DNA of 45,796 nucleotides, taken from the IMG/VR virus record IMGVR_UViG_3300025941_000040, positions 1 to 45,796 of that record, one strand, 5' to 3'. Positions 28,556 to 45,796 of this stretch are shown here, one piece after another. A program made the position numbers and the translations under genes. This DNA is from a virus. Within the stretch, counting starts at the first letter, position 1. Each line of letters starts with the position of its first letter. Below the pieces are notes generated by a model. The model had not been told where the DNA came from, did not search any database, and worked only from the letters and a program-made list of their open reading frames with translations.

Positions 28556-29098
28556 ATGGTAGCCTACAAGGCCCTTACGGGGGTGAACATCGCATTGATG
28601 TGCCTACTGGCCTATCGAACCCCGCAGCCGTTCTTCCGCTGCTACCTGATTGTGATGGCGATAGCTGCCGCGCTCCAGAACAGCACGCATTGGGGCATGT
28701 GGGGCGAAGTGTCGCTGGCGATCTTTAGCGCGTTGTGGCTGGTAAGCGAACTTCCGCGAGGCCGCAGGGCGGTCACCGAGGCGCTGGCGCTCGGACTGTT
28801 CGTCGCGGCGGTCCTGATGCTAATGGTGGTTGCGGCATGGCCCAACTACCCTTCCGCGATGTATTACACGCGGCTGTATTCTACAGCGCTTTGCATGGGG
28901 CTAGCCCCCCCCCTGGCGTTAATCGACTGGCGAAAGAGCCTTATCTTGATATGGTTCGCCGCCGTGCTCGTAGCGGGATCGCAGCGCGGGTGGAATTACG
29001 TTACCGTGGCGGTAGCGTGCAATGCGGCATGGACGGCGATACTTATCGCATGGAATTGGATGGAGGGAAAGAAGCATGAAATATTTCATCGATACTGA
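28556..29098 (+). CDS. Multi-span membrane protein (180 aa)
   Basis: The 180-residue protein has about five hydrophobic spans, including NIALMCLLAYRT, LIVMAIAAALQNS, LALGLFVAAVLMLMVVAAW and LIWFAAVLVAG. No strong ribosome site precedes ATG 28556, so the start is uncertain; a later ATG at 28598 is possible. The last 23 bases overlap the exoribonuclease gene. No family recognised; could be a membrane-modifying or superinfection-exclusion protein. Confidence 0.55.
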   Translation: MVAYKALTGVNIALMCLLAYRTPQPFFRCYLIVMAIAAALQNSTHWGMWGEVSLAIFSALWLVSELPRGRRAVTEALALGLFVAAVLMLMVVAAWPNYPSAMYYTRLYSTALCMGLAPPLALIDWRKSLILIWFAAVLVAGSQRGWNYVTVAVACNAAWTAILIAWNWMEGKKHEIFHRY

Positions 29099-30130: not shown

Positions 30131-30319
30131 CTATTCTCCCTTCGGCAACTTGTTCAACTGATCGCGCCGCGTTTCCGCCTGCGCGCGTTTCCGAAACGGC
30201 ATCTTATCGAGATTGCCCAGCAGTCCCGGCTCGTTCATAAGGCGATTCTTCATCTCTTCGCCGGTCATCTCCATGACGGCCCACTCCGAGCCCACCTTGA
30301 CCACGTAGAAGAGGTTCAT
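30131..30319 (-). CDS. Hypothetical protein (62 aa)
   Basis: ATGA overlaps the preceding stop. The 62-residue product (LFYVVKVGSEWAVMEMTGEE, then MPFRKRAQAETRRDQLNKL) is a small beta-start and helical-end protein. It looks like a late accessory gene beside the holin genes. Unknown function. Confidence 0.5.
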   Translation of the reverse strand: MNLFYVVKVGSEWAVMEMTGEEMKNRLMNEPGLLGNLDKMPFRKRAQAETRRDQLNKLPKGE

Positions 30320-30702
30320 TCTTTTGGCGGCGTAACAACCGGTTCTACTTTAGTTTCCTTAATCGTGGTAGTAACCACCGGAGGCGGCGGGATCGGCTTG
30401 CTCTCGGTAGCTTCTACCTCGACGCGCTTGGTGGTAGTCTCCGTTTGCACCAGCGCAGGAAGTGGCTTATTGTGCAGGTATTGCATGGTTGCCATGAGAG
30501 CGCTCAGTGCGAACGTGATCGCCATGAGGATGTATAGCTTGCGATCATAAATATTGAAGTCCTTGGAGTCTACCAGGATGCTGCCGAATCCGGCGTAAAC
30601 GGAATTGGCCCCGCCGCTGATCGCGCCGGAAAAAAGACCATAGAGCCAATTCGACCAATCCAGGTACCCCAGCTTCCCGCCCATCAGTTGAGTCTGCGCC
30701 AT
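30316..30702 (-). CDS. Membrane protein with proline-rich tail (128 aa)
   Basis: Residues about 15-35 are hydrophobic-amphipathic (SNWLYGLFSGAISGGANSVY), and about 55-75 form one membrane span (LYILMAITFALSALMATMQY). The C-terminal 50 residues are proline/threonine-rich and charged (TTTKRVEVEATESKPIPPPP). It follows the holin-like gene, so it may be a second holin or antiholin. Function inferred from position. Confidence 0.55.
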   Translation of the reverse strand: MAQTQLMGGKLGYLDWSNWLYGLFSGAISGGANSVYAGFGSILVDSKDFNIYDRKLYILMAITFALSALMATMQYLHNKPLPALVQTETTTKRVEVEATESKPIPPPPVVTTTIKETKVEPVVTPPKE

Positions 30703-30715
30703 CTATGGTTGCTCC

Positions 30716-31009
30716 CTATCTTCCCGTGTAATCCGACTCTGGCTTCTTCCCGATCCCCCCAATGGCTGCATGGTTCGTTCGGCTAAAGTAAAACCCCACG
30801 ATGAGGAACATGGCGTTCGTAAGTCCCTCTGGTATCTTGACTTCTTTTCCTAAAAGGCTAGCACTTACCCACACGATAATGTTGGCACCCACCACCATTA
30901 CGGCTACGGACGCCTGCGTATATTCCCAAATGAGATTGACCTTGCGCTGCCCCGCAGTGGTAATGTCCTGCTGTGCCGTCGTGGTGGGCGGCAGCGAGGG
31001 CTGCGTCAT
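30716..31009 (-). CDS. Putative holin (97 aa)
   Basis: The 97-residue product has two spans: YTQASVAVMVVGANIIVWVS and LTNAMFLIVGFYFSRTNHAA, with an N-terminal soluble start and a polar end (GGIGKKPESDY). A VGFYFxRTNH ending is typical of a group of phage two-span holin-type proteins. It is near the end of the late operon, after the last secreted gene, but not near the endolysin. Confidence 0.6.
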   Translation of the reverse strand: MTQPSLPPTTTAQQDITTAGQRKVNLIWEYTQASVAVMVVGANIIVWVSASLLGKEVKIPEGLTNAMFLIVGFYFSRTNHAAIGGIGKKPESDYTGR

Positions 31010-31010
31010 A

Positions 31011-33800
31011 TCAATGGATTACGGCCCTTCCTGAGATTGTGACGGCTCCAGAGATGCGCGTGCTGACGCCCGAAGATCCCAGCGTCGTGAAGCTATCCCC
31101 CGCCAAGAGCCACGTGGACATATCCGCCGCTACGCAGGAAAGCTTGTAGTAGTAGGTGGTCGCGGGAGTTAGGGGGCTATTGAATCCCAGGTTGAACGTG
31201 ACGTTCGATCCAACCACCGTATTCCCCGTGCGCGTATCCAGTTTCTTGCCGCTGGTATTGGTATCGGCATTCTCGTTCGCCGTGGTCCGCGCTGGCGCGT
31301 TATAGAGCGTCATGCTGCACGCGGTTGATCCGGGGCGGGTGTAGGTAGCTACCGCACTCGTAGAGCCGGGTGTGATCGTAAAGCTTTCCTGGACTGCCCA
31401 CGTAGGTGTGCCCGCTACGGCTCCAGAGATAGCCGCATTGATGGCCTCCACGTCCGCCCCGAGGTCCGTACCATCGGAGGACGTGAACGCGCACCCCGAG
31501 GAGCACGACGCGCTATAGGGGCTCGTAGGGGCTAGCCGGTAATCCCCTGTGGACGTGTTGACGAAACCAATCGCGGCGTTGTTCGCCGGGAGGCTCGTAT
31601 TGGTCATCGTGTTGCCGGTGCCCGCGCCCCCGGTGGTATAGTCGCCCACCGCGCCCTTGAGCGCCATGCGGTTCCAGGTGGTATTGGTGAAGTTGGTAGA
31701 AAAGTAGCTGCGCTGGCCGAAGAAATCATACCCGTCGATGGAGTTGGTGAACGTATCCAGGTTGTGCAGCGTGGCCGTCATCAGCGTGTCATAGAGGAAA
31801 CTCTGAGGCGTGTAGGGTGATCCGGTAGGCCCATCGGTCTGCACCACCGTGTTGTGGTCCCAGGTGTTCTGGAGCGTTGCCCGCCCTGACCATAGGTGGT
31901 TCCACATATTAAACCCGCATCCCACGCTCGTGAATAGGACGGTACAGTAGGCAGGCCCGCCCAATACCGCCAGGTTGTTCCTTACACTGAGGTTGTTCGT
32001 GACGCCGTTGACGCAGGGCGTGTTTCCCGTGCTGGTCCCCGTGCAGATCGATCCCCAGGAGAACACGCGATACGCCTTGGTGATCTTGTTGTTTGCGATG
32101 CTGAAGTGGTCCAATGCATCCCCAGGACCGCTATCGGTGCGCTGTCCGAACGCGAAAGCGTTCCCGGCTTGCCCGTCCGTCCAGTTCCCCTCGAATACGT
32201 TGCCGGTAACGGTCATGTTTCGACAGTTTTTGCATTCCAGGAGATTCTTGACCGGGTAATGCGTGGGCGTAGTTCCGGTCATTGTCCATGTGCCAGAGAC
32301 ACAGAGCCAGCCTTGGGAATTGACCGTATCGAACATATACTCGCCGCCCCGGTGACGCGGATCGGGAGAGTTGGCCGCATCCGACAGGCAAGCGCCCGAG
32401 GCGTTGCCATAAGCGCCCGAAGTCCACTTCCAGATGTAGGGCTTGTAGAAGTAGTTCCCCGTGATGGTCTTGTTCTGATTCGAGAGCGGATAATAGGGAG
32501 AAATAGAACCGCCGTAAAGGACGTTCTCTCCAGAGCCTTCAAGGAAATTGTTGATGATCCGCGTTGGTCCGTAGCTCCCCCACCCTGCGATGCACTGCGC
32601 CTCGCCGGTCGATTTCATCCCGTCGCACCAGCTATCGTGCATGTAGAAGTTCGTCCCGTTCTCGGCGACGCCGCGATTCGGCCCGTTCTCAGACTGCGAG
32701 AAATCGTGTATCCATACGCGGTCAAGCTCCATGCTGTCGGGCATCGATAGCGGGCTGGTTTCCTTGCCGCCGCCGAAGATCAGTACATTGCTCATGAAGT
32801 TGCCGGTAGTCGGGGCGAACTCAATGCCGCTGAACTTCCAGCCGTGCGGGACAAGCTGATTGGAGAACGTCTGCATCCCGGTTCCGACATTGGTTAAATC
32901 GATGGCGGCTCCTCCCGGAGTAGCTGATACCTGAAAGCCGTTGCCGCTGAGATTCTTGACGTAATAGATCGTGTCCTGCGCTAATGGAGCGCACAGGGAG
33001 GATGCGAGGCGCAGTCCTCCTGATCCGAACGTAATGGGGGCACTGTTGACGTAAACCGCCCCTAGCGTGTCTGGTGCCGTAACTGTATCCGCCGTTGCAT
33101 TGCACTGCATCGGCAAGCCATAGGTAACATAGGTCGCACAGTCCGAATCGCAGGCCGTGATGTCGATGGCTGATCCGCCAGCGGTTAATGCTAGCTGGAA
33201 TGTCCCACCGTTGCTGCCACAAGAACTGCAATTGATGATCCAGTAGTGCTGAAGAGCCACCAGGGGAGTGGGACAAGCCGTGCTAGTGGGCATCGCATTG
33301 GGTACGCCGAACTCATTGTAAAGCTCGCATTCGATCTGCGTTCCGTTGGCCACGGTCAAGCCGTTAGGCGTCCATCCGGGGCCGGTCACCGTGAACGTAT
33401 TCGTTGCCAGGTTCACCGAGGCTTGCTGATAGGTGTTGCCCTGGTTGAATCCGTGCGCCTCGCCCGAGGCGATAATCCCCGTTCCCGAGAACTGACACTT
33501 TCCGAAGTTGGCCGAATCCGTAGCCGGATTGACGCGATAACCCACGGCAGGAAGAGACGCGAGCGCCGAAGATTGCACGGTAATGTTGGTTACCGTAGCC
33601 GGGAGCGTAGCATCGCAGGTCACCCGCGATCCGTTGGCTACGATGATGATTGTGTCGCCTGTCGCCACCGTCTGCGCCGCCTTGTTAAACGTGAGCCACG
33701 GAGAGCCGATAGAGCCGGGGTTGCTATCGTTCCCGGTGCTAGACACGTAGTACGTGGCTCCCTGAAGCGATAGAGCGGCGAGAAAGAGAGCGATCCTCAT
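31011..33800 (-). CDS. Secreted 929-residue right-handed beta-helix protein
   Basis: A Sec signal peptide opens the protein (RIALFLAALSLQGATYYVSS), followed by STGNDSNPGSIGSPWLTFNK, the usual start of secreted beta-helix proteins. Helix coils run to about residue 700 (YYPLSNQNKTITGNYFYKPY, NCRNMTVTGNVFEGNW, HFSIANNKITKAYRVF). The C-terminal 200 residues contain YRLAPTSPYSASCSSGCAF, a Fn3-like segment (TYTRPGSTACSMTLYNA) and a surface-type end (AVTISGRAVIH). It resembles cell-surface proteins of soil bacteria. The role may be carbohydrate binding or adhesion; active-site residues are not evident. ATGA links it to the collagen-like gene upstream. Confidence 0.72.
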   Translation of the reverse strand: MRIALFLAALSLQGATYYVSSTGNDSNPGSIGSPWLTFNKAAQTVATGDTIIIVANGSRVTCDATLPATVTNITVQSSALASLPAVGYRVNPATDSANFGKCQFSGTGIIASGEAHGFNQGNTYQQASVNLATNTFTVTGPGWTPNGLTVANGTQIECELYNEFGVPNAMPTSTACPTPLVALQHYWIINCSSCGSNGGTFQLALTAGGSAIDITACDSDCATYVTYGLPMQCNATADTVTAPDTLGAVYVNSAPITFGSGGLRLASSLCAPLAQDTIYYVKNLSGNGFQVSATPGGAAIDLTNVGTGMQTFSNQLVPHGWKFSGIEFAPTTGNFMSNVLIFGGGKETSPLSMPDSMELDRVWIHDFSQSENGPNRGVAENGTNFYMHDSWCDGMKSTGEAQCIAGWGSYGPTRIINNFLEGSGENVLYGGSISPYYPLSNQNKTITGNYFYKPYIWKWTSGAYGNASGACLSDAANSPDPRHRGGEYMFDTVNSQGWLCVSGTWTMTGTTPTHYPVKNLLECKNCRNMTVTGNVFEGNWTDGQAGNAFAFGQRTDSGPGDALDHFSIANNKITKAYRVFSWGSICTGTSTGNTPCVNGVTNNLSVRNNLAVLGGPAYCTVLFTSVGCGFNMWNHLWSGRATLQNTWDHNTVVQTDGPTGSPYTPQSFLYDTLMTATLHNLDTFTNSIDGYDFFGQRSYFSTNFTNTTWNRMALKGAVGDYTTGGAGTGNTMTNTSLPANNAAIGFVNTSTGDYRLAPTSPYSASCSSGCAFTSSDGTDLGADVEAINAAISGAVAGTPTWAVQESFTITPGSTSAVATYTRPGSTACSMTLYNAPARTTANENADTNTSGKKLDTRTGNTVVGSNVTFNLGFNSPLTPATTYYYKLSCVAADMSTWLLAGDSFTTLGSSGVSTRISGAVTISGRAVIH

Positions 33801-34171
33801 GGGCAGGTAATCACCATCGAAGTGGTGTTAGACGCTGGATTCGTGGGCGAGAACTTCACCGTGCATGGCTGACCATCGGAGCGGGTGATCTGCCACACCG
33901 TAGGCGAAGCGGGAGCGCCAGTTGATATGCTTCCCGTAACCACTAACGGCCCCGTGATCGTGGTTACTCCATTCGCCACGGTGATCGTGGAGATACCCGC
34001 GCCCGCTGGACCGGGAGGCCCTTGCGCCCCGGTTGCGCCGGTAGCTCCGGTATCGCCCTTGTCTCCCTTGGGACCCTGTAGGCATACTGTTCCAGTTGCG
34101 CTTGTCGCGGTAAGTGAGCAGGTTTGCCCGAAGGCCGCGATGGAGAAGGTGAGAAGGAGCAGGAGTTTCAT
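33797..34171 (-). CDS. Secreted collagen-like protein (124 aa)
   Basis: The product has a signal peptide (KLLLLLTFSIAAFGQ), a linker (TCSLTATSATGTVCLQ), nine G-x-y triplets (GPKGDKGDTGATGATGAQGP then GPAG) and a C-terminal beta part (GISTITVANGVTTITGPLVV). Two cysteines lie in the linker and two near the C-terminal part. G-x-y repeats form a collagen triple helix that can trimerise. I started at ATG 34171 because longer readings enter the upstream gene. It is in the secreted cassette and links by ATGA to the 929-residue gene. Confidence 0.75.
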   Translation of the reverse strand: MKLLLLLTFSIAAFGQTCSLTATSATGTVCLQGPKGDKGDTGATGATGAQGPPGPAGAGISTITVANGVTTITGPLVVTGSISTGAPASPTVWQITRSDGQPCTVKFSPTNPASNTTSMVITCP

Positions 34172-34172
34172 A

Positions 34173-35336
34173 TTAGTTCCGAATCGTCGCCTGCATTCCG
34201 GCCTGCGTTCCATCGGCTCCGGAATCCCCATACCAAGTAGTAGTGCCGCTTCCCGATCCCTTCTGTAACCAAGCTAGGAAGTGATATCCGGCAGTAGTAA
34301 AATTTCCACTATAGAATCCAACAGTAGGAACCCCGGGACCGCCCGTCGCGAAATTAAACACTCTCACGCTGCCAGCGGGGGAACTGGTTGAATCCACCCC
34401 AATGCCCATATAGCCAACGCCGCTGGCTACCGTCACTACGCTCTCATCCATCGCCCAAACCGAATCCTCGGGTTGGCCGATCACAAATTCAACCTTATTC
34501 CCAGCGGCTCCATTGAACTGCTGCCAGGTATTCGTGGAGTAATTGAAATTATCTACCGTGTCGATCACCGACAGGGATCGATTTACGCGATTACAATAGC
34601 TCCATACAAACCTCTGACCGCCAACCTGCGTAGTTCCCGTCGCCCCTCCGCTATCCGCCGTTACATTCGTCCCGCTGGCGCGGATTGTCCCTATGTAGCG
34701 CCGGGTGGTCGCCCCGCTCTTGACATATACGCCGTCCTGGGTTGTTAGCGCATCGGCCCGCACGTTGTCACTCGTCCATGCTGCGGAAAGCTCCAGGGTT
34801 AGCGTCCCGGAGTTATTGAAAACGAACACATCATAGTTTTTCCCTGATGTAACCGAAAGGGCCAGGGACAATTCAGAGAATGAATATGCAGCCCATGCGC
34901 TGCCACTATAGAGCGATATCGTAGACCCGAGATAGGGCGTGTAATAAATCGTTCCCTGCGCCGTGCGATCAGACGTGGATACGGCTACGCCCGTTTCGGT
35001 GGTTAGCCTCCCGCTACATACCGAAGGAAGCAGCAGGTTAGCTAGCGGGAGCAATGATCCAGCCTTGGCGCTCGCCACCGGGATATTGGTCAGATTAGAG
35101 GCATCGCCACTGGCAGGGGTTCCTAGAACCGGAGCCACGAGGGTTACGGCGGTGCCGTTAGTGGTGCAACCTGTGATGCCTCCAAAGACTCCCGCGTTAT
35201 TGTATTGGCATTGGGTGGTAGACCCTCCAGGAGTTCCGCCGCCGCCGCCGCTGCCAGAGAAGGAAGGCAGTGGCGCTTGCGAGAACGCCGAGACCACAAC
35301 TGCGAAAAACAGGGCGAATACGTTTTTCATCTTCAT
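34173..35336 (-). CDS. Secreted fibre-like protein (387 aa)
   Basis: The N-terminus is a Sec signal peptide (NVFALFFAVVVSAFSQ) followed by APLPSFSGSGGGGG, a linker shared almost exactly with the 306-residue protein in this cassette, and CQYNNAGVFGGITG, a motif of phage fibre coats. Later segments (YTPYLGSTISLYSGSAWAAY, then YDVFVFNNSGTLTLELS and GTIRASGTNVTADSGG) match a domain common in tail-fibre proteins. The C-terminal end (GYHFLAWLQKGSG, TTTWYGDSG) is a beta-rich cap. Thus a fibre-type protein that carries a signal peptide. Confidence 0.75.
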   Translation of the reverse strand: MKMKNVFALFFAVVVSAFSQAPLPSFSGSGGGGGTPGGSTTQCQYNNAGVFGGITGCTTNGTAVTLVAPVLGTPASGDASNLTNIPVASAKAGSLLPLANLLLPSVCSGRLTTETGVAVSTSDRTAQGTIYYTPYLGSTISLYSGSAWAAYSFSELSLALSVTSGKNYDVFVFNNSGTLTLELSAAWTSDNVRADALTTQDGVYVKSGATTRRYIGTIRASGTNVTADSGGATGTTQVGGQRFVWSYCNRVNRSLSVIDTVDNFNYSTNTWQQFNGAAGNKVEFVIGQPEDSVWAMDESVVTVASGVGYMGIGVDSTSSPAGSVRVFNFATGGPGVPTVGFYSGNFTTAGYHFLAWLQKGSGSGTTTWYGDSGADGTQAGMQATIRN

Positions 35337-36892
35337 CTTAAGCCACCATTCCCTCTAAGCGTCATTGCGCCCCCACTCTGCGAAGAGTTCAGCACGGCAT
35401 ATACCTGAATCTTATGATCCAACGTGGATATGTATGCCTTCTTGTTCGCTATTACCGCAACGGAAAATTTAGAAATCGTTCCGAGAGGGGCGCTCATGAT
35501 TTCATTAAGGCTCATATCAAAGGCCCTTATGACCCCGACCGTGGGAGTTACCACCGCGCTCGTCGGCACGGTTACGGCCCACAGGATTCCCCCAGCATCA
35601 GTGCCGTCGCCAGAAATCGATAGCTGCGCCCCTGGAAAGGCATAGCTGTTGGTGCTGGTGGTCGGAGTTTGATTAAATGTCGTTCCGCTCAGATCGAATC
35701 GATAAATCTTCCCGGCGACGTTCGGAAAGAAGGCGTGATTGTTATAAAACGCGCCCCCATAGATGCCAGATCGATCACCCAGCACGCCACCGGCATTCGT
35801 TGGGAAGACTTGCGCTGCGGGGCATCCGCTACCGCTCCCCTGCTGGTGTCCCATGCAGGTCGTATCTACTGCATATACATTGAAGTCCTTGGCCCCACCC
35901 ACCACCCACGTCGTGCCCGGTATAAGCATGGCGCGACCGCTCGAAAAGTCTGAGTCATTCGCATTCAGGGTTGCGATTGTAGCATCGGTGGGAGCGTACC
36001 AGTCCACAATCGCCAGCGTCGAACTCAGCTTTATAATGCTAAAACTGAACGCCGTTGTGCCGTTGTATGCCCCGTTCCCGGTGAGCATGTATAGATTTCC
36101 GCTTCCGTCTACACTTAAACCTCCGCTAGATCCCCATAGTCCCGCCCCCCAATCATTCGGAGACGTGCACAGGATCGCCGTCTGATTCAGGGACTCGTCA
36201 TACGCAAAGGCCCATCCATGCCACGGTCTGGCATCGGCATAAGAGGCGAAGGTGATATACACCCTGTTATTGGCAAGTGTCAAGGCCGAACGCTGAAGCT
36301 CAAAGGCTGGATAGAAAAGCAGATTCGCTCCGCTGGTAGTGTCTCCATGTCCCACGTCTCCGGTGCCGACCACCTGCCCGCTAATGGTTGTAGATGCGAT
36401 AGTGGCCCCTGTCAGCAGGTTTAACTTATAGAGGATATGGGACGGCACCGAGGTATGGCAAACGGCAAACAACCAGCCGTTTGCAATGTCAGCCACGGGA
36501 GCGGACAGGCATCCTATTTCGCGCCCATAAAACAAAGGCCCCGAATCCGGGTAGCTGGTTCTCGGCGTGCATATTCCCAAGCGGCTCCAAAATACAACGC
36601 CTGAATGGTCCGCATCGAGTGCGTAAATCGAGCAGTGCATCGTAACTACGATCAGAATGTTGAGGCTCAATCCCGCAACTGATGGACCGGGAAGATATAG
36701 CGATTGCCCAAAAATATCCCCATCCAGGAGGTATGAGCCCACCAATCCAAACCTGCCCGACACTACCTGACTCGGAACGATTGAGGAGTCGTGGATATAT
36801 CCCGTCCTTGAGTTATCCGCATGGGCGGTGAATAGGGCGGGCTGGGCCGAAAGGCCCCAACAGGAAACCAATAGCAGCAAGGCTCGTATCAT
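35333..36892 (-). CDS. Secreted PQQ-type beta-propeller (519 aa)
   Basis: A signal peptide (IRALLLLVSCWGLSAQ) precedes a beta-propeller with typical PQQ-like segments: HSGVVFWSRLGI, YKLNLLTGATIASTTISGQV, LSVDGSGNLYMLTGNGAYNG, FDMSLNEIMSAPLGTI, KAYISTLDHKIQVY. Secreted PQQ-like propellers are abundant in Acidobacteria. No catalytic residues are evident, so carbohydrate or surface binding is a fair guess. The start is ATG 36892 with an ATGA overlap; the ATGA at its end overlaps the fibre-like gene. In a phage late operon this is unusual. Confidence 0.75.
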   Translation of the reverse strand: MIRALLLLVSCWGLSAQPALFTAHADNSRTGYIHDSSIVPSQVVSGRFGLVGSYLLDGDIFGQSLYLPGPSVAGLSLNILIVVTMHCSIYALDADHSGVVFWSRLGICTPRTSYPDSGPLFYGREIGCLSAPVADIANGWLFAVCHTSVPSHILYKLNLLTGATIASTTISGQVVGTGDVGHGDTTSGANLLFYPAFELQRSALTLANNRVYITFASYADARPWHGWAFAYDESLNQTAILCTSPNDWGAGLWGSSGGLSVDGSGNLYMLTGNGAYNGTTAFSFSIIKLSSTLAIVDWYAPTDATIATLNANDSDFSSGRAMLIPGTTWVVGGAKDFNVYAVDTTCMGHQQGSGSGCPAAQVFPTNAGGVLGDRSGIYGGAFYNNHAFFPNVAGKIYRFDLSGTTFNQTPTTSTNSYAFPGAQLSISGDGTDAGGILWAVTVPTSAVVTPTVGVIRAFDMSLNEIMSAPLGTISKFSVAVIANKKAYISTLDHKIQVYAVLNSSQSGGAMTLRGNGGLR

Positions 36893-38685
36893 TTGCTTAA
36901 CCCGTAGCAATAAATGGTTCCCGATGCCACGTTGCCGGTGGACATAAAGAATTGAACAGCGTTGACGGCGGTAGCGCTCTGATAGGCGCTACTTGACGGA
37001 ATGCCTACTATCCTGTTAGTGCTGGCCGTATAGCCAAGCATCCCCGTAATGCGTTTCCAATTCGCTGCGCTTAGGGGATTTCCGAGAATGAGTTCCCCGG
37101 TGAGTCCCCCAGTGGATGCATTAGACAATCCATCCGCTATGCGCGCAAACGTGGCTCCCGAATTGGCTCCAGGGGGAGCCCCAGCAGCCCCCGGAATGAA
37201 TCCGTAGGTAGTCCAAGCGTAATTCGCTCCGCTATCATAGGACATTCCCCCATTGGTCGATGCGCGCCAATAAAGGTTCGCCGCGTCCGTGGCGGGAAGG
37301 ATGTTCTCGAATATGAAATAGTAATTGTTGTAGGTGCTCGAAATACAGGCCGAGAAGTCGAGACTTGCAGATCCCGAGGCCGTATGCTCCTCAATCAGAG
37401 TAAATCCTCCCCCGCTGCCGCTGCATGCCGATCCAGAAGCTAGGCAAAAGTTTCCAGTTCCGCTGAATCCTTTAATTGATAGCGCCCCCGCCCCATCGCT
37501 AACGATGCCGCCTGCTGCATCCGCCGCTGGGACTTTCCATTGATAGGACGTTCCAATGGAAGTCGGGGCATAGAGCGAGAATGAATTTGCCGGGAAAGAC
37601 GCGGGAAGTGTGCCTTGCGTCAGGTCGATGACTCCAGCCACGCCCGTACCGCTGCCTGATGTTACTCCGCCCGTGAGTACCAGGCTGGTCCCCGTGGCCG
37701 CGCCGATTACCGGCGTTATAAGCGTTGGTGTCGTGTCGCGCACCACGTTTCCCGTGCCTGTGAATCCCACGAAGCTGAGCGTATCCACATTCGCCGCATT
37801 GGTCCCCAGCATGAAGCCCGTACCGGCTGCGGAAGGAAGCAAGAAAGCATATGACGTAACCGAAGTGGGAGCATAAATTCCAACGCTCGTAGTGCCTAGA
37901 GAATAAGCGGTGCCCTGCGTAAGCTCGATGGCTCCCGCGGCGGTGCCGCCGACCCCAGCCGATATGGTTCCAGGTGTCGAGAGATCGCCCCCTGCGCTCA
38001 ATGTTGCCGTGGAGCTTGGCGTTTGGATGGCCTGCGCCCCTCCTCCCGTAACCAGAGCCGAGCTCATCAGGGTTCCCGCCCCTACTACCGTGACGGTTCC
38101 GCTCCCGCTGGAACATGCCGCCGAGGTTCCATCAACATGCACACAATTAGAGCCGGTTCCGGTAACCGCAAGCGCGTTTCCCGCCCCGTCTCCCCTTAAT
38201 GCAGAGGTTGTGCTGGGGATCGTGCCGCCTCCGCTGCCGGTTGCTGGTACCCACGTATTCCCGTCCCACTTTGCAAACTGCCCCGTGGTCGCCCCGCTCT
38301 GCGTGATATAGGACAAGGGAATGGTATTCGGCAGGGGAGGTGGAGGGGCCACGCTACGAACGCTCGAAACATCTACAGGAGTGGCTGATACCGGAACACT
38401 CCAGAACTCCGTTGGCGGAGCGCATCCTGACGGAGCAGTTACATAAGTGACTGTATAGTATGGCCCCGGCTCCAGCGACACGCTAAACGTGCCCGTTGCG
38501 GCATTGATCGGCGTGGTGAATGATCCGCCTGCAAAAAAACCATCCGAGTTGGTAAAGGGCGGATTGCTGATCGAGAGCGTACCCGAGCAGAACGAACCAT
38601 TCGCCAGTTGCAGCGTGCCCGTAACGGTAGTGCGTGCGGCAAATGCCGGGAACGCCAAGGCCAGCAATAGGAGGAGGCGCTTCAT
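36889..38685 (-). CDS. Secreted tail-fibre-like protein (598 aa)
   Basis: Starts with a signal peptide (KRLLLLLALAFPAFA) and a beta-rich TVTGTLQLANGSFCSGTLSI segment. Then comes SYITQSGATTGQFAKWDGN, a fibre-type repeat, and two tandem repeat units (ELTQGTAYSLGTTSVGIYAP and DLTQGTLPASFPANSFSLYA) with PTLITPVIGAATGTSLVLTG between them. The C-terminal 150 residues (IEEHTASGSASLDFSACISS, NNYYFIFENILPATDAAN, RITGMLGYTASTNRIVG) match a common tail-fibre tip domain. Hence a fibre-like domain set behind a signal peptide. Overlaps both neighbours as ATGA. Confidence 0.78.
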   Translation of the reverse strand: MKRLLLLLALAFPAFAARTTVTGTLQLANGSFCSGTLSISNPPFTNSDGFFAGGSFTTPINAATGTFSVSLEPGPYYTVTYVTAPSGCAPPTEFWSVPVSATPVDVSSVRSVAPPPPLPNTIPLSYITQSGATTGQFAKWDGNTWVPATGSGGGTIPSTTSALRGDGAGNALAVTGTGSNCVHVDGTSAACSSGSGTVTVVGAGTLMSSALVTGGGAQAIQTPSSTATLSAGGDLSTPGTISAGVGGTAAGAIELTQGTAYSLGTTSVGIYAPTSVTSYAFLLPSAAGTGFMLGTNAANVDTLSFVGFTGTGNVVRDTTPTLITPVIGAATGTSLVLTGGVTSGSGTGVAGVIDLTQGTLPASFPANSFSLYAPTSIGTSYQWKVPAADAAGGIVSDGAGALSIKGFSGTGNFCLASGSACSGSGGGFTLIEEHTASGSASLDFSACISSTYNNYYFIFENILPATDAANLYWRASTNGGMSYDSGANYAWTTYGFIPGAAGAPPGANSGATFARIADGLSNASTGGLTGELILGNPLSAANWKRITGMLGYTASTNRIVGIPSSSAYQSATAVNAVQFFMSTGNVASGTIYCYGLSK

Positions 38686-38945
38686 TTCTTCTCGGGAGCC
38701 CTGGGGGTGCATGCCGGATCACCCGCAGCATTCTTGACTAGCTGACGATCCCCGCACTTGCGCGCGAGTTCGTTGGTCTTATCCTGATATGCCTTGGCTG
38801 CGGCCTCGGCGGATGCTTTGGATTCGAGCATATCCGCACGCGCACGCTGCCAATCGTGCTGCTCCTCTGGAGTGATCTGCGGCTCGGGCGGCTTGGCATC
38901 GTCGGCATAGAGAGAAGCGGCGATCAGAAGGAATAGAGTTTTCAT
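38682..38945 (-). CDS. Secreted small coiled-coil protein (87 aa)
   Basis: A short signal peptide (KTLFLLIAASLYA) leads to a helical part (PEEQHDWQRARADMLESKAS, then AAKAYQDKTNELARKCGD) and a C-terminal cysteine (DPACTPRAPEKK). Two cysteines could bridge. It lies between two fibre-like genes; translation is coupled by ATGA. Perhaps a chaperone or linker. Confidence 0.6.
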   Translation of the reverse strand: MKTLFLLIAASLYADDAKPPEPQITPEEQHDWQRARADMLESKASAEAAAKAYQDKTNELARKCGDRQLVKNAAGDPACTPRAPEKK

Positions 38946-38946
38946 G

Positions 38947-39867
38947 TTAGTTCACAATGAAATAGCTGAAGCATGCTGGATTCGTGGTTGGCGCAGCCTC
39001 TAGCGTAAATGTGAAACTCGTCCCAGCCGTTCGCGCAGTAACTCTACCAGCCCCCAACGTAAGACTGCTTTGCGTGTTGCACGTAACTCCCAATACGGCC
39101 CCCAAGGAAGAGTCTTCCTGGACGAAAATTTGTGACCCTGCCGTTACGGCAGTCGTGCTCACAGTAGCGGTAGAAGACGCCGCAGCCACCGAAAAAGATC
39201 CTATAATGTTAGCTCCGCACGTTCCCCCAGCGCTATAACATGCGGTATTGGTATCGAGATGCGCCCCTATGATTACCCGAGGGTATGAGATCTCAGTATT
39301 AATGCCATCAAGGGATAGCGGCGTATCCGAGGAGCCATCTTGATTGCTGACCGTGAAGGTAATATCAGAAGCAAAACTGCTCGTGCTGGGAGTATCTGCC
39401 ACGTGTATAGCAATAGAACTTCCCGTACGAAAAGCACCATTCTTGTACCCAAACGAGTTTACCTTTAGAAGCGTATCCCCAGAGTTCACGTCTGCCGGAG
39501 ACGCCAGAGTGCCATTGTCGGAATATGACTGAAGGGTTGGGACGTAGCCATTTGAGCCTCGTATTCCAAAAATCGGATCGCTGGCACCCGTATCTATGGC
39601 AATTTGCGCCACCGGCAGTCCGCCCCCGACGCTGGGCGTTGCGCTCCCAGGATTTTGCTTAATGAATAACTGTGAGGTCGCCGCATTCCATAGCAGTCCG
39701 GTGGCTCCCCCGAACGTCCCGGCATTGTTGTAGCAAATCGTCTTGTCGGTTGCGCCGCAGGTAACCGCTCCGATTCCGCCGCCCCCGCCACTGCCGGGGA
39801 ATGATGGTAACGGAGCTTGCGCCTGAAGCGCAATTGCAAAAACGAACGTAATAAGCGCCTTCATCAT
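38947..39867 (-). CDS. Secreted fibre-like protein (306 aa)
   Basis: A signal peptide (KALITFVFAIALQAQ) is followed by APLPSFPGSGGGGG and CYNNAGTFGGATGLLWNAAT, as in the 387-residue protein. Later segments (GIRGSNGYVPTLQSYSDNG, then ITFTVSNQDGSSDTPLSLDG) look like tail-fibre shaft, and the C-terminus (SFSVAAASSTATVSTTAV, then FTFTLEAAPTTNPACFSYF) is a cap-like beta domain. It belongs to the same export-and-display group. The domain order parallels the 387-residue protein. Confidence 0.75.
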   Translation of the reverse strand: MMKALITFVFAIALQAQAPLPSFPGSGGGGGIGAVTCGATDKTICYNNAGTFGGATGLLWNAATSQLFIKQNPGSATPSVGGGLPVAQIAIDTGASDPIFGIRGSNGYVPTLQSYSDNGTLASPADVNSGDTLLKVNSFGYKNGAFRTGSSIAIHVADTPSTSSFASDITFTVSNQDGSSDTPLSLDGINTEISYPRVIIGAHLDTNTACYSAGGTCGANIIGSFSVAAASSTATVSTTAVTAGSQIFVQEDSSLGAVLGVTCNTQSSLTLGAGRVTARTAGTSFTFTLEAAPTTNPACFSYFIVN

Positions 39868-39872
39868 GCCTC

Positions 39873-40334
39873 CTAGGTGGCCGAGTAGTAAAATGTAATC
39901 GTGCAGGTCCCATCGGCTGATATGGTGAGATTGCTGGCCGTGCCGTTTGCCGCCAAGCGGAAATTGTAAAGATCCAGCAAGAGCGTCCCGCCCGCCGCCA
40001 CCACATAGCTAGGCCCCGTGGTGCCCGTGCCCACATTGCTGCCCGTCCATAGCGTCATGCCAGAGGCTTGCTGCGTTCCGGGGAGTTTCTTTTCCGTGGC
40101 GCTCGTGGTTGCCGTCGCTGCCGCCCCGTTCCATTTAAGCGTCACCGTCTGAGCCGATGCGCAATAGATAGACGCGCCTGCGGTTGTGGCGCTGCCGAAC
40201 ACAATCGCGCGTCCATTGCTGGCAGGTGCTTGGATGGTATATGCAGTGGTCGATGCGGAAGCCGTGTAGCGATCCGGCGGCGGCTGCGCTATTAGCACGC
40301 AAGCAAGAAACAGCAGGGCAAGCAGTTTACGCAT
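39873..40334 (-). CDS. Secreted small beta-rich protein (153 aa)
   Basis: First gene of the secreted cassette. A signal peptide (RKLLALLFLACVLIAQ) precedes a beta-rich protein (YTASASTTAYTIQAPASNG, IYCASAQTVTLKWNGAAA, GTLLLDLYNFRLAANG, LTISADGTCTITFYYSA). It resembles small structural proteins of phage tails or adhesive subunits. No catalytic motif. It follows the ejection-protein genes by eight bases. Confidence 0.65.
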   Translation of the reverse strand: MRKLLALLFLACVLIAQPPPDRYTASASTTAYTIQAPASNGRAIVFGSATTAGASIYCASAQTVTLKWNGAAATATTSATEKKLPGTQQASGMTLWTGSNVGTGTTGPSYVVAAGGTLLLDLYNFRLAANGTASNLTISADGTCTITFYYSAT

Positions 40335-40342
40335 GGTCTATT

Positions 40343-41668
40343 CTACCTTTTCATTAAGTCGGCAATGCTGATCGTCGTGGGTGCCGTTACTTCCGAACTT
40401 TTGGCCGCAATCCTGCGCCGGATCATCTTGATTAACGCCGCATCCGGCTCAATTCCGTACTGGCGCGTGATGACCGCGAGCGCCTTGGGATTCTTACTCA
40501 TACTGTCAAATTGTTCCGTGGTGATGCGCCCCGCCAACTTCTCGCCAATATCCTTAGCGATGAGCGATGGATTCGCGGGCTCCGTGCTGGTGGATGTTGG
40601 CTTACGAAGCTGCGATTGGATAACCGGAGCCTCGCCGCCGCCTTCATCGAACTTGGCGAGATAACGCCCGCCTTTAACTTCGCCTAGGGGGAGGTCTGGA
40701 TCTAGCCCCGCCTTGATCTTCTCTTTCCGCAGCAGATCGTTTAGCTTGCCCGTCAGATCAGCATTCTCGGCAGGCTTGGCAGGAGCCTCTGCGGGCTTCT
40801 CGGCAAGCGGAGGACGCACGGGCGTGTTGGGCTCAGAGCCTACGCCGTAGTAGCTCGGATCGCGCGGGGCTTGGGGAGCGGGGGCACTGCGCGAACTAGT
40901 AGATGCGCCGCTTGTCTTGAGCCGCAATTGCTCCTGCATCGCAGGCGGGAGCGCTTCCCATACTTTCGGATCAACGCCTTCGGGGACGGGAATATCCGGA
41001 GGCGTGGCCTCTACCGGCGCTGATTCCGGAATGGGGGCCTTGGCCTTGCCGATGGATTTGGATAATTCCGCCCCCACCTTGCGACCAATATAGGCTCCCG
41101 CATAGCCCGCATAGGGAATGCCTAGAGACTCACCGGCAAGATGCCCAGCGATTCCACCCGCTGCGGTTCCTGCCGCTTTAACCACAGAGGGCTTGGTGGC
41201 CATCTCCGCTACTTTACTGGCCGCACTACTGGCAATGTCTCCAACGGCGCTAGCCGCTTCCCCTACTGCGGGTCCAGCTTTGCCCAACAGGAAGGGCAGG
41301 GCGATATCCGTTGCGCCTTCTGCGCGTTGCCCTGGAGTCGCCAACTTATCCGCCGTCCGGTTAATCAGCGGCCCAATGATCGGCACTGCGGCCCCGAGTG
41401 CGCCCGTCACGGCCCCTAGATAGTCACCCTTGGCGTAGTTCTCTTTGGCTCGATCCCACTCGTGCAACTGCGCCCCAAGCATTTCATCGCCCTGCTTAAC
41501 CGCCGCGCGCGGATCGAATATGCCGTGGATGGTTTCAAATAACCCCTTGGCTTGGTTCTGAATCGAGGTCATCACCTGCTCTGGTACGCCAGGGAGTTCC
41601 TTTTGGGAAGATTCAGGAACGGGCTTCCATGCGGATTCGTCTACGGGAGTCCATGCGGATGCTGCCAT
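40343..41668 (-). CDS. Internal / ejection protein C (441 aa)
   Basis: The N-terminus (ASAWTPVDESAWKPVPESSQ) is acidic and repeated; residues about 85-115 and 120-190 are hydrophobic and glycine/alanine-rich (GALGAAVPIIGPLINR, GTAAGGIAGHLAGESLGIPY, YAGAYIGRKVG). Such weakly membrane-active helices suit P22 gp7/gp16/gp20-type ejection proteins. The second half is proline-rich and disordered, and it ends TTISIADLMKR, like the small basic protein at 15753. Located after two other internal protein genes, TAATG-linked. Confidence 0.65.
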   Translation of the reverse strand: MAASAWTPVDESAWKPVPESSQKELPGVPEQVMTSIQNQAKGLFETIHGIFDPRAAVKQGDEMLGAQLHEWDRAKENYAKGDYLGAVTGALGAAVPIIGPLINRTADKLATPGQRAEGATDIALPFLLGKAGPAVGEAASAVGDIASSAASKVAEMATKPSVVKAAGTAAGGIAGHLAGESLGIPYAGYAGAYIGRKVGAELSKSIGKAKAPIPESAPVEATPPDIPVPEGVDPKVWEALPPAMQEQLRLKTSGASTSSRSAPAPQAPRDPSYYGVGSEPNTPVRPPLAEKPAEAPAKPAENADLTGKLNDLLRKEKIKAGLDPDLPLGEVKGGRYLAKFDEGGGEAPVIQSQLRKPTSTSTEPANPSLIAKDIGEKLAGRITTEQFDSMSKNPKALAVITRQYGIEPDAALIKMIRRRIAAKSSEVTAPTTISIADLMKR

Positions 41669-43104
41669 TATGGTTCCGCCTTCCAGCCGGGAGGTAGGGG
41701 AGTACCGGCAGGAGCCTCATGGAGTTTACCTTGTGGATCACGCGCCCGAATGGTTGTTCCCGCATTGGCCTTCTTAATCGTTTCTGCCGGGTCCTGATAT
41801 GCGTTGCCAGAGGCTCGCTTGAATGCGGCGAACTGCAATTCCCGATTATTTTTCTTCTGCTGGAGCACTTCCGGCGAATCGCCCGTCTTGGGGATGTATT
41901 GCTTGTAAGCGTTATCGAACTCGCCCGAATTGATGACTGCCCCGGACTCCCGCCGTAGAACGGCATTGATGAAATCGCGCTGCGCCTGATCGAACTGCTG
42001 GCCCTTGGCCGTGTTCATGAAGTTGGGCGCATTGCGCTCATACATATTCACGTCGAGGCGATCCAATTCATCCGAGGCATTACGGATACGTGCGGCATAG
42101 GCGGCAACGGTATTCTGTGCCGCCGTGGACGGTTGCAGATTCATCTTGGCGGCTTGCTGCTTGGTGGTTCCGTAGGCAACGCCAAGCGTAGCCGCCTCTA
42201 CCGGAGAAAGAATCTTATCGTCATCCTTCTCTTTGGCTAGCCTTGCCGCCGACAAGCCTTCCTCGGCGCGATTGTGACGCTGAGATTCAACGAAGCGCTT
42301 CTGCTCTAGGGCAAACGCATCCGCCTGGTGCTGCTCGGTGGCCTTGCGTGCATCTTCTACGGCGCGCTGTTCTGGCGTTAGCAATCCCTGATCTGTAAGC
42401 GTGGCCTCCGCAATAGCCTTTTTAACGGGTGCCTCCACCGCCGCAGTAGCCGCATCCGTTATTTTCTTCTCGGTTTCGGCCTGCTTTTCCTTAAATGCGA
42501 GCGCCTTATTCGTGACCGCCTGCGCCACTCCAACGCCCGCCTCCCATTTCTTCAGGTCCGAGACATCGTTCACGTTCGGAATGGCGTTAGGGTCGATACC
42601 GGCATTCTTGAACAGAAGCGCATTCGCAGGATTGGCCTTGAATGCGGAGAGGTTCGCATTGATGCTGGCGGGATCTTCCCCGAGCCCCTGAATGCCTTCC
42701 GCTAGCGCATTTAGCGCCGTACTGCGATTCGCAAGATCATCCTTGCTGGCCAGCGCTGCCGCCTGATGAATCTTTGCCGTATTCTCCTCGATCTTTTGGC
42801 GGAAATCGTCTTGCACCTTACCGAACAGGGGCGAGGTATCGCCAGCGGCGATCTTGGGCGCAATCGTCGGATCGGCCATCATCTCTTTCAGCGTGCTTTC
42901 GTCCTGCATCTGCCGCTGCTTTTGCTCGGTTACGAGCGCTTCCCGTGCCGCCTGCTGGCGTGCATGCTCGGCTTGCGCCAGCCGCAACGGAATCTCGGCC
43001 ATCTGCCCGCGTAATTGCATAAGCGTAGCGATAGACTGAAGCGGAGAAACCTGCTCCACCTGGGGAGAATGGAACTGTAGCGGGATGCTGGGGTCGATAG
43101 GCAT
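41668..43104 (-). CDS. Internal / ejection protein B (478 aa)
   Basis: This helical protein has long coiled-coil stretches (LRLAQAEHARQQAAREALV, DAFALEQKRFVESQRHN, IRNASDELDRLDVNMYERNA) and a short GAVINSGEFDN element near residue 390. The composition is close to P22 gp20-type DNA-injection proteins. It overlaps its neighbours by one base (TAATG). No signal peptide. It is packaged with the genome and released at infection in comparable phages; here that is inference. Confidence 0.65.
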   Translation of the reverse strand: MPIDPSIPLQFHSPQVEQVSPLQSIATLMQLRGQMAEIPLRLAQAEHARQQAAREALVTEQKQRQMQDESTLKEMMADPTIAPKIAAGDTSPLFGKVQDDFRQKIEENTAKIHQAAALASKDDLANRSTALNALAEGIQGLGEDPASINANLSAFKANPANALLFKNAGIDPNAIPNVNDVSDLKKWEAGVGVAQAVTNKALAFKEKQAETEKKITDAATAAVEAPVKKAIAEATLTDQGLLTPEQRAVEDARKATEQHQADAFALEQKRFVESQRHNRAEEGLSAARLAKEKDDDKILSPVEAATLGVAYGTTKQQAAKMNLQPSTAAQNTVAAYAARIRNASDELDRLDVNMYERNAPNFMNTAKGQQFDQAQRDFINAVLRRESGAVINSGEFDNAYKQYIPKTGDSPEVLQQKKNNRELQFAAFKRASGNAYQDPAETIKKANAGTTIRARDPQGKLHEAPAGTPLPPGWKAEP

Positions 43105-43964
43105 TAGCCGCTAGTCTCCGCAGCATCAACGAATGGGGGAGTCGCGATCATGGGTCCATTGCCCATCATGGGCGGACTGTAATTAACGGCACCGCTGGCA
43201 TCTTTCCAGGTATTTAGACCGCCGCCTGTCGCCCCGAGTCCTAGCTGACTGAGGAGCAATGCACTGCTCAGTCCGTTCGTAGCGCCGCTAATCCCTCCGC
43301 TGATCGCATTCGCCCCGCCGATGATCCCCGAGGCTTGCGCATTGCCGATTCCGGTCATCAGGTTGCCCACGTTCGTAGCCGTCTGCGTGCCGGTATTATT
43401 GAGAGACTGCACGGCGGTTTGGCCCGTGTTGGCCACGCCCGCAAGCTGGTTATAAGCCTGCCCTTGGCCTGCTAATTGGGCTTGGTAGGATTGGAGCGCT
43501 CGATTAAAGGTATCACCGTAGGTCGTATCGGCCAAGCCGGTGTTATATCGATCAATGGCCTTGAGAGTTCCACCGGAGAGAGATCGGCCACCAGCGGACG
43601 CCGCCGCCATGACGCCGCGATTGCCTTCCTGCTGGGTGAACTGGTAGCCAGGCGTAGCCCGTGCCTGCTCTGCCGTGGGCGCAGTGAAGGGCGCAATTGA
43701 TCCGGGGCCGAAGGTTCCATTCGATAGCCCCTCCATGAGCTTCGAGAGCGAGGTTTTCCCAGCCTCAAGCCAAGGGGCTTGATTCTGCTGCTGGGTTTCC
43801 CACATCTGCTTTTGGAAATCGAGAGCGCTTTGACCGGCCTGAGCCTGCTTATCCGCTGCGCTGCCTGCGGCGTGCGCTCCAATCGCAGAACTAGCGACAG
43901 CGCCGCCCGCCGAGGCAATACCGCCAATGAGTGCCGCTGTGCCAAGCGAAACGCCTACGCTCAT
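43104..43964 (-). CDS. Internal / ejection protein A (286 aa)
   Basis: A glycine/alanine-rich N-terminal helix (AALIGGIASAGGAVASSAIG) precedes QQNQAPWLEAGKTSLSKLM and GYQFTQQEGNRGVMAAASAG, GGTLKAIDRYNTGLADTTYG, a pattern shared by injection proteins of many podophages. The C-terminus is glycine-rich (SGIIGGANAISGGISGATNG). The start ATG 43964 overlaps the previous stop as ATGA. It is probably released from the head to form part of the DNA conduit. Confidence 0.7.
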   Translation of the reverse strand: MSVGVSLGTAALIGGIASAGGAVASSAIGAHAAGSAADKQAQAGQSALDFQKQMWETQQQNQAPWLEAGKTSLSKLMEGLSNGTFGPGSIAPFTAPTAEQARATPGYQFTQQEGNRGVMAAASAGGRSLSGGTLKAIDRYNTGLADTTYGDTFNRALQSYQAQLAGQGQAYNQLAGVANTGQTAVQSLNNTGTQTATNVGNLMTGIGNAQASGIIGGANAISGGISGATNGLSSALLLSQLGLGATGGGLNTWKDASGAVNYSPPMMGNGPMIATPPFVDAAETSG

Positions 43965-44500
43965 TGGAGTACCCCCGTTCCGAATACTACCTGCACCAGA
44001 CGCGCATCGTCGCCCTCGCCCCAATTCTCATGGATCGCCCGCGAATGAAAGTAAGTTGAGGGAAACATCAGGACACGGTTAAATGCTCCCCCCACCAGTT
44101 CGCGCAAGGTCCAGCTATCCGGGATTCTGCCCTCCTCGGATCGCTCGTGCGGAATCGAGCTTTCAATGGCTCCGGTGCGATGGGTCCAGAACGCCGTGCC
44201 GTCGCCCTCTTTGGGATCGGGATTCAGGTAGAGAAGCGCCGTCCAGTGCCCCATATCCACATCGGTATGGATGAAATGCGGCTCCTGCTGTCCTAGCGGA
44301 CTCTTGCGGAAGAACGTCAGGATCGGCGTCAGTTCCGGGAACATGACCGCAATCCATTGGCAGAGATCGCAGGATAAACCAGCGGGAGCGATGCCGTGGA
44401 ATACACAATGGCCGAAATCGAAGGTCTTGAACTCCAGTTTCAGCGCAGCCTCGCGGTATGCCATCGGATTGTTCAGCGCATTATCGAATACCTGGATCAT
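43961..44500 (-). CDS. 2-oxoglutarate/Fe(II) oxygenase-like protein (DUF6445-type)
   Basis: This 179-residue protein has an HxD pair (H78, D80 in FIHTDVDMGHWTALLYL), then NPDPKEGDGTAFW, a distal H152 (PSTYFHSRAIHENWG) and R167 before a final strand (RLVQVVFG). These are the iron- and co-substrate-binding positions of cupin-type 2OG oxygenases, and the gene resembles a phage-specific DUF6445 group. The substrate is unknown; position beside the fibre and ejection genes suggests modification of a virion protein or of small molecules in the infected cell. Confidence 0.72.
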   Translation of the reverse strand: MIQVFDNALNNPMAYREAALKLEFKTFDFGHCVFHGIAPAGLSCDLCQWIAVMFPELTPILTFFRKSPLGQQEPHFIHTDVDMGHWTALLYLNPDPKEGDGTAFWTHRTGAIESSIPHERSEEGRIPDSWTLRELVGGAFNRVLMFPSTYFHSRAIHENWGEGDDARLVQVVFGTGVLQ

Positions 44501-44946
44501 GCCGCTAGATCCTTGGAATACAGCGTCTCCACCTGCTCATAACCCAAGCGCTTATAGATGCGCGCCAGCTTTTCTGGCATGGAGTCCATCAGGTGTACCA
44601 TGCGCATGGTCTTGGCTCCCTTTTGGCGTGCCCAGTATTCGAGCGCTTCATAGAGCCGCAGGCCCGCCGATCCCCGATGACCGGGGCGCACGAACCAAAA
44701 GAACTCAGAAACCACCAGATCGCCCGAATAGGGCTCGGGAACCGCCATCCCCGCGATAGCGCCGATGATTTCGCCGTCATCTTCCGCGATGAAGATTACC
44801 CCTAGCTCGCTTGCGATAATCGGACGCCAGAACTCCACGAATCGATCAATCTCAAAAGAACGCAGGAACTTCGAGGATGCGTAAAACTCCTTCGCTCCCG
44901 CCGCCAGCGCGCGGAGCTTGAATCGGCAGATGGGCTTAATTTCCAT
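44497..44946 (-). CDS. GNAT-family N-acetyltransferase
   Basis: The 149-residue protein begins EIKPICRFKLRALAAGAKEF and has ELGVIFIAEDDGEIIGAIAG (beta4), then EFFWFVRPGHRGSAGLRLYE (86-100), the acetyl-CoA-binding motif A with Q/RxxGxG/A variant, and RIYKRLGYEQVETLYSKDL near the end. I chose ATG 44946, sharing TAATG with the fibre stop; longer starts enter the fibre gene. The acceptor is not known. It may modify the fibre or another virion protein. Confidence 0.75.
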   Translation of the reverse strand: MEIKPICRFKLRALAAGAKEFYASSKFLRSFEIDRFVEFWRPIIASELGVIFIAEDDGEIIGAIAGMAVPEPYSGDLVVSEFFWFVRPGHRGSAGLRLYEALEYWARQKGAKTMRMVHLMDSMPEKLARIYKRLGYEQVETLYSKDLAA

Positions 44947-45796
44947 TAGGCAAATGTTTGCGCATTCTGGGAGAGCACGTTCCACTTCCCCTGATAGGCG
45001 ATGAGCGTTAGGCTGGCCCCCGCAAAGGCTGCGCAGGTTGCCGTGTTTACTGTTGCCGCTCCCGTCTGGAGCAAGCCTGTCGCGGTAATCACATGAGCGA
45101 AGGCGCTATTTGAGGTAATCACGATCTGGATAAAGTCATCGGTGGTCACCGTTGGCGCTGCCAATGTCAGGTTGCAAATGCTGCCCTTGGTAATAACGTA
45201 GGCCGCTGCTGTATGGGGATCAATCGCACCATCCACGCTCAAGACATTCGGCGTAGACCGGATCGGCGGCAATAGCCCGCCCGTCGCTGCCGATTGATGC
45301 GTATGCGTGGCATTGGCAAAGCTGGCGATTGTGGGCGTGACGATAGTAGGGGAGGTCGTGCGAACCATCGCCCCGGTGCCCGTGTTGGCAGTCACCGCCA
45401 CGCCCGCAATAGAAAAGCTGTTTCCCGTGCCTGCCGTGTCGAACGTCTTATTGGTGAGAGTATCGGTGGTTGCCTTCCCGACGAGGGTATCTGTTGCGTT
45501 CGGAAGCGTTAAGACGCGCGCTCCGGTAGGAACGCCCGTTAGCTGGATCGACGTGCTCCCATAAGTCCCCGATCCCCATAGATAGAGACTCCGGAAGGGC
45601 TTGGCCGTCGATCCTAGGTCAATGCCGGTTTGCGCCAAAAGTGCCGCATTGAGATTCGTCGTACCGAGATTGGCAAGCGTAGCCAACGCATACGTCGCTG
45701 AAATGCTCGGGATATCCGCCGCTACCAGCGCACGGAATGCAGGCGCAGCAGCCCCGCCGCTCGTGGGACCGGCATAGACGTAATTAGCCGTAACGC
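44946..45796 (-). CDS. Tail fibre, C-terminal part (begins at 446 across circle join)
   Basis: This holds the rest of the 382-residue fibre whose N-terminus lies at 446-1. The frame is open to the window edge through the repeated 148 bases. Segments: a SISATYALATLANLGT hinge, GIDLGSTAKPFRSLYLWGSG, RVLTLPNATDTLVGKATTDT, then GTGAMVRTTSPTIVTPTIAS and ATHTHQSAATGGLLPPI, repeated in other fibre tails, and a small C-terminal beta cap (HVITATGLLQTGAATVN, then ASLTLIAYQGKWNVLS). It lacks a signal peptide. It is the likely main receptor-binding protein. Confidence 0.78.
   Translation of the reverse strand, partial: VTANYVYAGPTSGGAAAPAFRALVAADIPSISATYALATLANLGTTNLNAALLAQTGIDLGSTAKPFRSLYLWGSGTYGSTSIQLTGVPTGARVLTLPNATDTLVGKATTDTLTNKTFDTAGTGNSFSIAGVAVTANTGTGAMVRTTSPTIVTPTIASFANATHTHQSAATGGLLPPIRSTPNVLSVDGAIDPHTAAAYVITKGSICNLTLAAPTVTTDDFIQIVITSNSAFAHVITATGLLQTGAATVNTATCAAFAGASLTLIAYQGKWNVLSQNAQTFA
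45649..45796. repeat. Right copy of 148-bp terminal redundancy
   Basis: Matches bases 1-148 except at 45659 (T for G) and 45786 (A for G). The fibre frame is continuous through both copies in the same phase. Removing one copy gives a closed 45,648-bp circle. Confidence 0.9.

Follow-up and report, generated by a model that had tools for sequence, protein, structure and literature searches.

The window, the whole stretch of 45,796 bp of virus DNA that we analyzed, contained eight consecutive minus-strand genes, from position 40334 down to 31011, whose predicted products all began with a Sec-type signal peptide (SP). The run was located in the late operon of a P22-like soil phage. We regard export of the eight proteins as highly probable, and export accompanied by oxidative folding appeared probable. 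The whole chain, in which a late cassette of surface proteins would be exported by Sec, folded in the periplasm, and docked on particles at lysis, was in our judgment evenly balanced between right and wrong. To our knowledge, tailed phages are held to assemble wholly in the cytoplasm, and we found no precedent for periplasmic assembly among them.

The virus contig was recorded as linear. A terminal repeat of 148 bp (positions 1 to 148 and 45649 to 45796; 146/148 identical, with two mismatches) indicated that the genome is complete, at about 45,648 bp, and circular or circularly permuted. The window is a complete P22-like podovirus genome; P22-type genes for terminase, portal (phrog_156, 5e-97), coat (phrog_283), head closure (Hc3, phrog_578), and DNA ejection (positions 43104 to 44024, phrog_598, 5e-35) were all found in it. 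The minus-strand order, read across the contig ends, was head closure, a fibre with a head-binding domain, the ejection genes, the eight SP genes, and two membrane proteins. The tailspike gene of P22 is located in the region that follows the ejection genes. The ejection-type genes (positions 40343 to 44024, minus strand) were directly upstream of the eight genes, and two of them were called from their position and from weak tape-measure or lysin matches. No relatives were found in a search with the 441-aa ejection-type protein encoded upstream of the cassette. Two small membrane proteins (positions 30316 to 31009, minus strand) followed the eight genes, and one of these, with 128 aa, was common to other phages with SP-bearing fibres. 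No endolysin gene adjoining the cassette was recognized; a possible endolysin (positions 20954 to 21409, minus strand; phrog_873, 1e-9) was distant from where the late operon ends. In the interval between terminase and portal, we also observed a 332-aa protein (positions 14742 to 15740, minus strand) with a beta-helix-like start, FFVSPGTGSDQGGNGSVGSPF, seven cysteines, and no SP.

SPs were identified with a heuristic filter of our own rather than with SignalP. Specifically, the filter required lysine or arginine in the n-region, an uncharged hydrophobic core of 9 aa, and a -3/-1 cleavage site. All eight genes passed at their preferred starts, in keeping with the original prediction of eight consecutive Sec-type leaders. 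For comparison, the filter was passed by 6.5% of 979 open reading frames from about 110 other viral loci, and by 0.1 to 2.3% of whole-protein shuffles. The longest run of SP genes in those other loci was three, a conservative contrast because the background loci were already enriched in SP-bearing fibres. Elsewhere in the window, 2 of about 46 open reading frames passed. One was a membrane protein (positions 28556 to 29098), and the other was a 100-aa protein in the late region, among the fibre-region genes (positions 436 to 738, minus strand), with a twin-arginine-like leader, MNRRGFLGFLGAAIAGASL. This leader scored 16.4 bits against TIGR01409 (cut-off, 16.7 bits) and was also below the cut-off for PF10518; the protein is possibly a Tat-exported phage protein.

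Leader sequences had diverged but kept the SP form and a cleavage motif, and no clear transmembrane segment was found in the mature parts of the eight proteins. In five of the eight, cleavage would most likely fall before a glutamine (LIA/QPP, LQA/QAP, LSA/QPA, AFS/QAP, and AFG/QTC). Thus, the F-x-Q ending that was originally read as a cleavage site needs correction, as the predicted cut precedes the glutamine rather than following it. A lipobox with a cysteine at +1, as read by eye, was absent from seven of the eight leaders. In the case of the 519-aa protein, the leader contained LVSC, an early, short, and ambiguous lipobox candidate that was not clearly kept in the homologue from L014, described below.

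The first protein of the cassette (153 aa, positions 39873 to 40334, minus strand; leader MRKLLALLFLACVLIA followed by QPPPD) was small, with a beta-rich mature part and two cysteines, and no homologue was found in the phage collection. The second (306 aa, positions 38947 to 39867, minus strand; leader MMKALITFVFAIALQA followed by QAPLPSF) showed a match to the K1-lyase C-terminal domain that was weak and below the cut-off (9e-4). Its mature N-terminus, QAPLPSF[PS]GSGGGGG, was shared with the 387-aa protein, and a scan of viral contigs with the motif QAPLPSFxGSGGGGG found no match. The third (87 aa, positions 38682 to 38945, minus strand; leader MKTLFLLIAASLYA followed by DDAKP) was small, charged, and probably helical, with two cysteines. 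The fourth (598 aa, positions 36889 to 38685, minus strand; leader MKRLLLLLALAFPAFA followed by ARTTV) had fibre repeats and a C-terminal domain that matched phrog_14820 (1.6e-19), a phage family without an assigned function that is also present in Pelagibacter phage proteins. The fifth (519 aa, positions 35333 to 36892, minus strand; leader MIRALLLLVSCWGLSA followed by QPALF) appeared propeller-like and had a 46% identical homologue in the phage L014. It had no match in Pfam, which left the original assignment to the PQQ type without support from that source.

The C-terminal part of the sixth protein (387 aa, positions 34173 to 35336, minus strand; leader MKMKNVFALFFAVVVSAFS followed by QAPLPSF) was homologous to the Pam5 tailspike (5e-24) and to Rhizobium phage proteins; these homologues had no SP, and neither did the Pelagibacter phage homologues of the 598-aa protein. 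The seventh (124 aa, positions 33797 to 34171, minus strand; leader MKLLLLLTFSIAAFG followed by QTCSL) contained a collagen-like stretch and four cysteines, and it matched tail fibre PHROGs (about 1e-7) and, just under the cut-off, PF01391. Fibre- or tailspike-type homology within the cassette was found for the 387-, 124-, and 598-aa proteins only. The original fibre-tip label held up for the 387- and 598-aa proteins, and the collagen-like label held up for the 124-aa protein. The eighth (929 aa, positions 31011 to 33800, minus strand; leader MRIALFLAALSLQG followed by ATYYV) was a probable beta-helix protein with 24 cysteines; the beta-helix label drew weak support from a match between its N-terminus and the pectate lyase PelN (1.2e-8). 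An AlphaFold model of this protein, built from two sequences, had a pLDDT of 28 and was not used. The 929-aa protein had a 63 to 65% identical homologue in L015, another phage with a different portal type, where the homologue was preceded by three other SP genes. L015 also encoded, at positions 4241 to 5649, two neighboring proteins, an SP-less one of 238 aa and an SP-bearing one of 231 aa, with a common C-terminal domain that was 60.6% identical over 94 aa.

A phage locus that encodes host-like secreted proteins could also be read as a set of lysogenic-conversion genes, or morons, through which a lysogen would acquire new proteins on its surface, and the 519-aa protein does have a distant relative that resembles a bacterial lipoprotein. 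The layout of the locus argued against this explanation, which we consider improbable. The eight genes tiled the late operon right behind the ejection genes and left no space for promoters of their own. Each gene adjoined its neighbors or shared at most 4 nt with them, which indicated that the eight form one coupled block. Promoter-like and terminator-like sites in the block showed no excess over shuffled sequences; thus, the block had neither the promoter and terminator of its own nor the separation from an operon that mark a moron. No integrase or repressor was found among the window genes that were scanned, and fibre-type domains were present in the block. Scans of genome contigs yielded no prophage and matched one distant bacterial gene.

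A 382-aa fibre without an SP runs over the contig ends (3' part at positions 44946 to 45796 and 5' part at positions 1 to 446, minus strand), and its 5' part encodes a tailspike head-binding domain without cysteines (hhalign, 99.8%; profile, 7.8e-32). This fibre was the sole match when the whole window was scanned with the head-binding domain profile, and none of the eight SP proteins matched. The N-terminus of the 598-aa protein, which looked by eye like such a domain, was ruled out (hhalign, 0.3%), and the 153-aa protein gave an hhalign value of 0.2%.

Phages that were found via the 128-aa membrane protein included several with SP genes near that protein or behind the ejection genes. In one of them, L041, an SP stood immediately ahead of the domain that forms the tailspike N-terminus in isolated phages. 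A scan for the domain yielded 80 loci, of which 6 had an SP ahead of it (two with identical sequence) and 74 did not; the SP was directly ahead of the tailspike head-binding domain in six distinct P22-like phages, L041 included. An AlphaFold model of the domain (pLDDT, 82) matched the Pan3, Pam1, and P22 tailspikes in their head-binding domains, and a profile matched the Pam1 head-binding domain at 4.6e-13. In each of the six phages, the SP-tagged domain was the sole head-binding domain in the record, and two of these records appeared complete because their ends overlapped by 127 bp. In L057 and L117, the SP-tagged gene immediately preceded the ejection gene, in the position that the SP-less fibre occupies in the window. 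The SP-bearing domains clustered on the tree, so that one or two changes account for the SP and the number of independent origins would be one or two; the tree ruled out many independent gains. Large SP genes by our filter (1360, 828, 1372, 647, and 836 aa) were also observed at G010:C1:10876-17441 and G011:C1:14784-24092, in phages with SP-tagged head-binding domains.

The cysteine patterns provided evidence on export that was independent of the SP filter. Cysteines made up 1.9% of the eight mature proteins versus 0.8% of the other virion-type genes in the window (Fisher P = 6e-6), and their number was even in seven of the eight. Between the 929-aa protein and its homologue in L015, 14 cysteines were shared, and the remaining 10 window cysteines formed neighboring pairs in all five cases (P = 0.006); the two extra cysteines of the homologue were also neighbors. 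Paired differences of this kind would be expected if disulfides were gained and lost as units. In the head-binding family, all SP-tagged domains contained exactly two cysteines, whereas the 74 SP-less domains contained none (70 domains) or one (4 domains). The Fisher value for this association (1.9e-5) is descriptive only because independence is limited, with one or two changes on the tree and a paired test that rests on two pairs. The cysteine pair of L096 was at a different place in the domain, and L111, which branched with the SP-bearing L108, had neither an SP nor the pair.

A second family gave a similar picture. In four phages, the protein encoded after the coat gene began with an SP and contained a conserved pair of cysteines. 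The window copy (232 aa, positions 8786 to 9484, minus strand), which was 38% identical to the copy in G012 (E = 7e-32), had no SP and no cysteine, and the copy in G008 had no SP and one cysteine. The contrast did not extend to the tip domains of the 387- and 598-aa proteins, where some SP-less homologues also had cysteines, and this counted against the proposed mechanism. The tracking of cysteine pairs with SPs in two families, together with the paired changes in the 929-aa protein, supported export without reliance on the SP predictor. The export on which the proposed export-dependent appendage depends was strengthened accordingly by these two observations.

It could be argued that the leaders are not export signals and that the hydrophobic N-termini are uncleaved docking or trimerization tags on proteins that assemble in the cytoplasm. 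Phage fibres are normally regarded as cytoplasmic, one survey states that SPs are absent from phage-encoded hypervariable proteins (PMC6199706), and our SP calls come from a heuristic filter. A literature search, which covered mainly papers outside subscription journals, found none describing SPs on tail fibres. Three observations led us to regard such tags as quite improbable: the leaders diverged while keeping their SP form and cleavage motif, leaderless homologues kept the whole mature domain, and the cysteine pairs tracked the leader. The leaders, the retention of their form despite sequence divergence, and the cysteine pattern were most simply explained by export with oxidative folding.

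In the mechanism that we infer, the cassette would supply fibre tips, a stalk of collagen-like type, and two further surface proteins, one probably a beta-helix and the other propeller-like, all made as Sec precursors. Late in infection, these proteins would be translocated across the inner membrane, and the leader would be cut off before glutamine, alanine, or aspartate. They would fold in the periplasm, where their cysteine pairs would become disulfides, and heads with their short tails would follow the usual cytoplasmic route of maturation. Once the inner membrane is breached by the lysis proteins, particles would encounter the folded periplasmic proteins, and docking would be the last assembly step. 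P22 tailspikes can be added in vitro to finished particles; therefore, docking at lysis is feasible. Mounting on virions is suggested by analogy with the SP-tagged head-binding domains of the relatives and not by the eight proteins themselves. The lack of a profile match in the eight and the SP-less state of the window's own head-binding fibre counted against docking; the idea that the eight join released particles gained support from the relatives. More generally, there may be a tailed-phage branch with a secretory assembly arm, in which exterior proteins, including a head-binding tailspike and a coat-adjacent protein, would pass through Sec, become disulfide bonded in the periplasm, and be mounted at or after lysis; we hold this at slightly short of an even chance.

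These same observations bear on a less probable explanation, which we nevertheless weigh seriously: the eight proteins might be exported and never join the virion, with a late role outside the cell or in the envelope. They might be soluble receptor binders that mask receptors and thereby prevent progeny from sticking to debris or sister phages from entering. As enzymes or adhesins, they might also loosen or alter the matrix that surrounds the cell. Such roles would fit a phage that already has a complete, SP-less head-binding fibre and eight SP proteins in which no head-binding domain was found. They would also fit the resemblance of the 929-aa N-terminus to a secreted lyase and the C-terminal domain that an L015 SP protein shares with its SP-less neighbor, a pattern expected if the former were the secreted duplicate of a tip. 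However, six relatives carry the SP on the only head-binding domain in their records, a domain that a decoy would not need, and the coat-adjacent family is SP tagged in relatives as well.

If docking after export is correct, these viruses complete their outer parts outside the cytoplasm. The export and oxidation of tailspikes before mounting would alter the assembly map, the timing of lysis would be tied to the completion of particles, and SP and cysteine patterns would offer a new route to the receptor-binding proteins of uncultured phages.

Among known systems, the P22-type tailspikes (P22 gp9, Pam1, and Pan3) are similar in genome layout and in the head-binding domain, which is found in the 382-aa window fibre and in the SP-tagged fibres of the six relatives. 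They differ in that known members begin at the head-binding domain without an SP, and in that the domain was not found in the eight window SP proteins. Filamentous phages make Sec-dependent virion proteins as SP precursors, and their particles assemble in the membrane; the SP precursors are similar, but the phage in the window is a tailed dsDNA virus that has a head. Llp of T5 represents single, small, exported phage lipoproteins that mask receptors. The window proteins resemble it as exported phage proteins that could block receptors and differ in having large fibre-type domains and no clear lipobox apart from the ambiguous LVSC of the 519-aa leader. Cultured parallels in type and position were orf035 of Xanthomonas phage PBR31 and gp19 of Burkholderia phage BcepC6B, SP-bearing fibre-like proteins encoded between the holin gene and a tailspike or fibre gene. 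In the text searched, the PBR31 paper remarks on an SP only in the esterase gp40 (PMC10975493). PBR31 and BcepC6B have one such SP gene each, unlike the run of eight in the window, and as cultured phages they make the question testable now.
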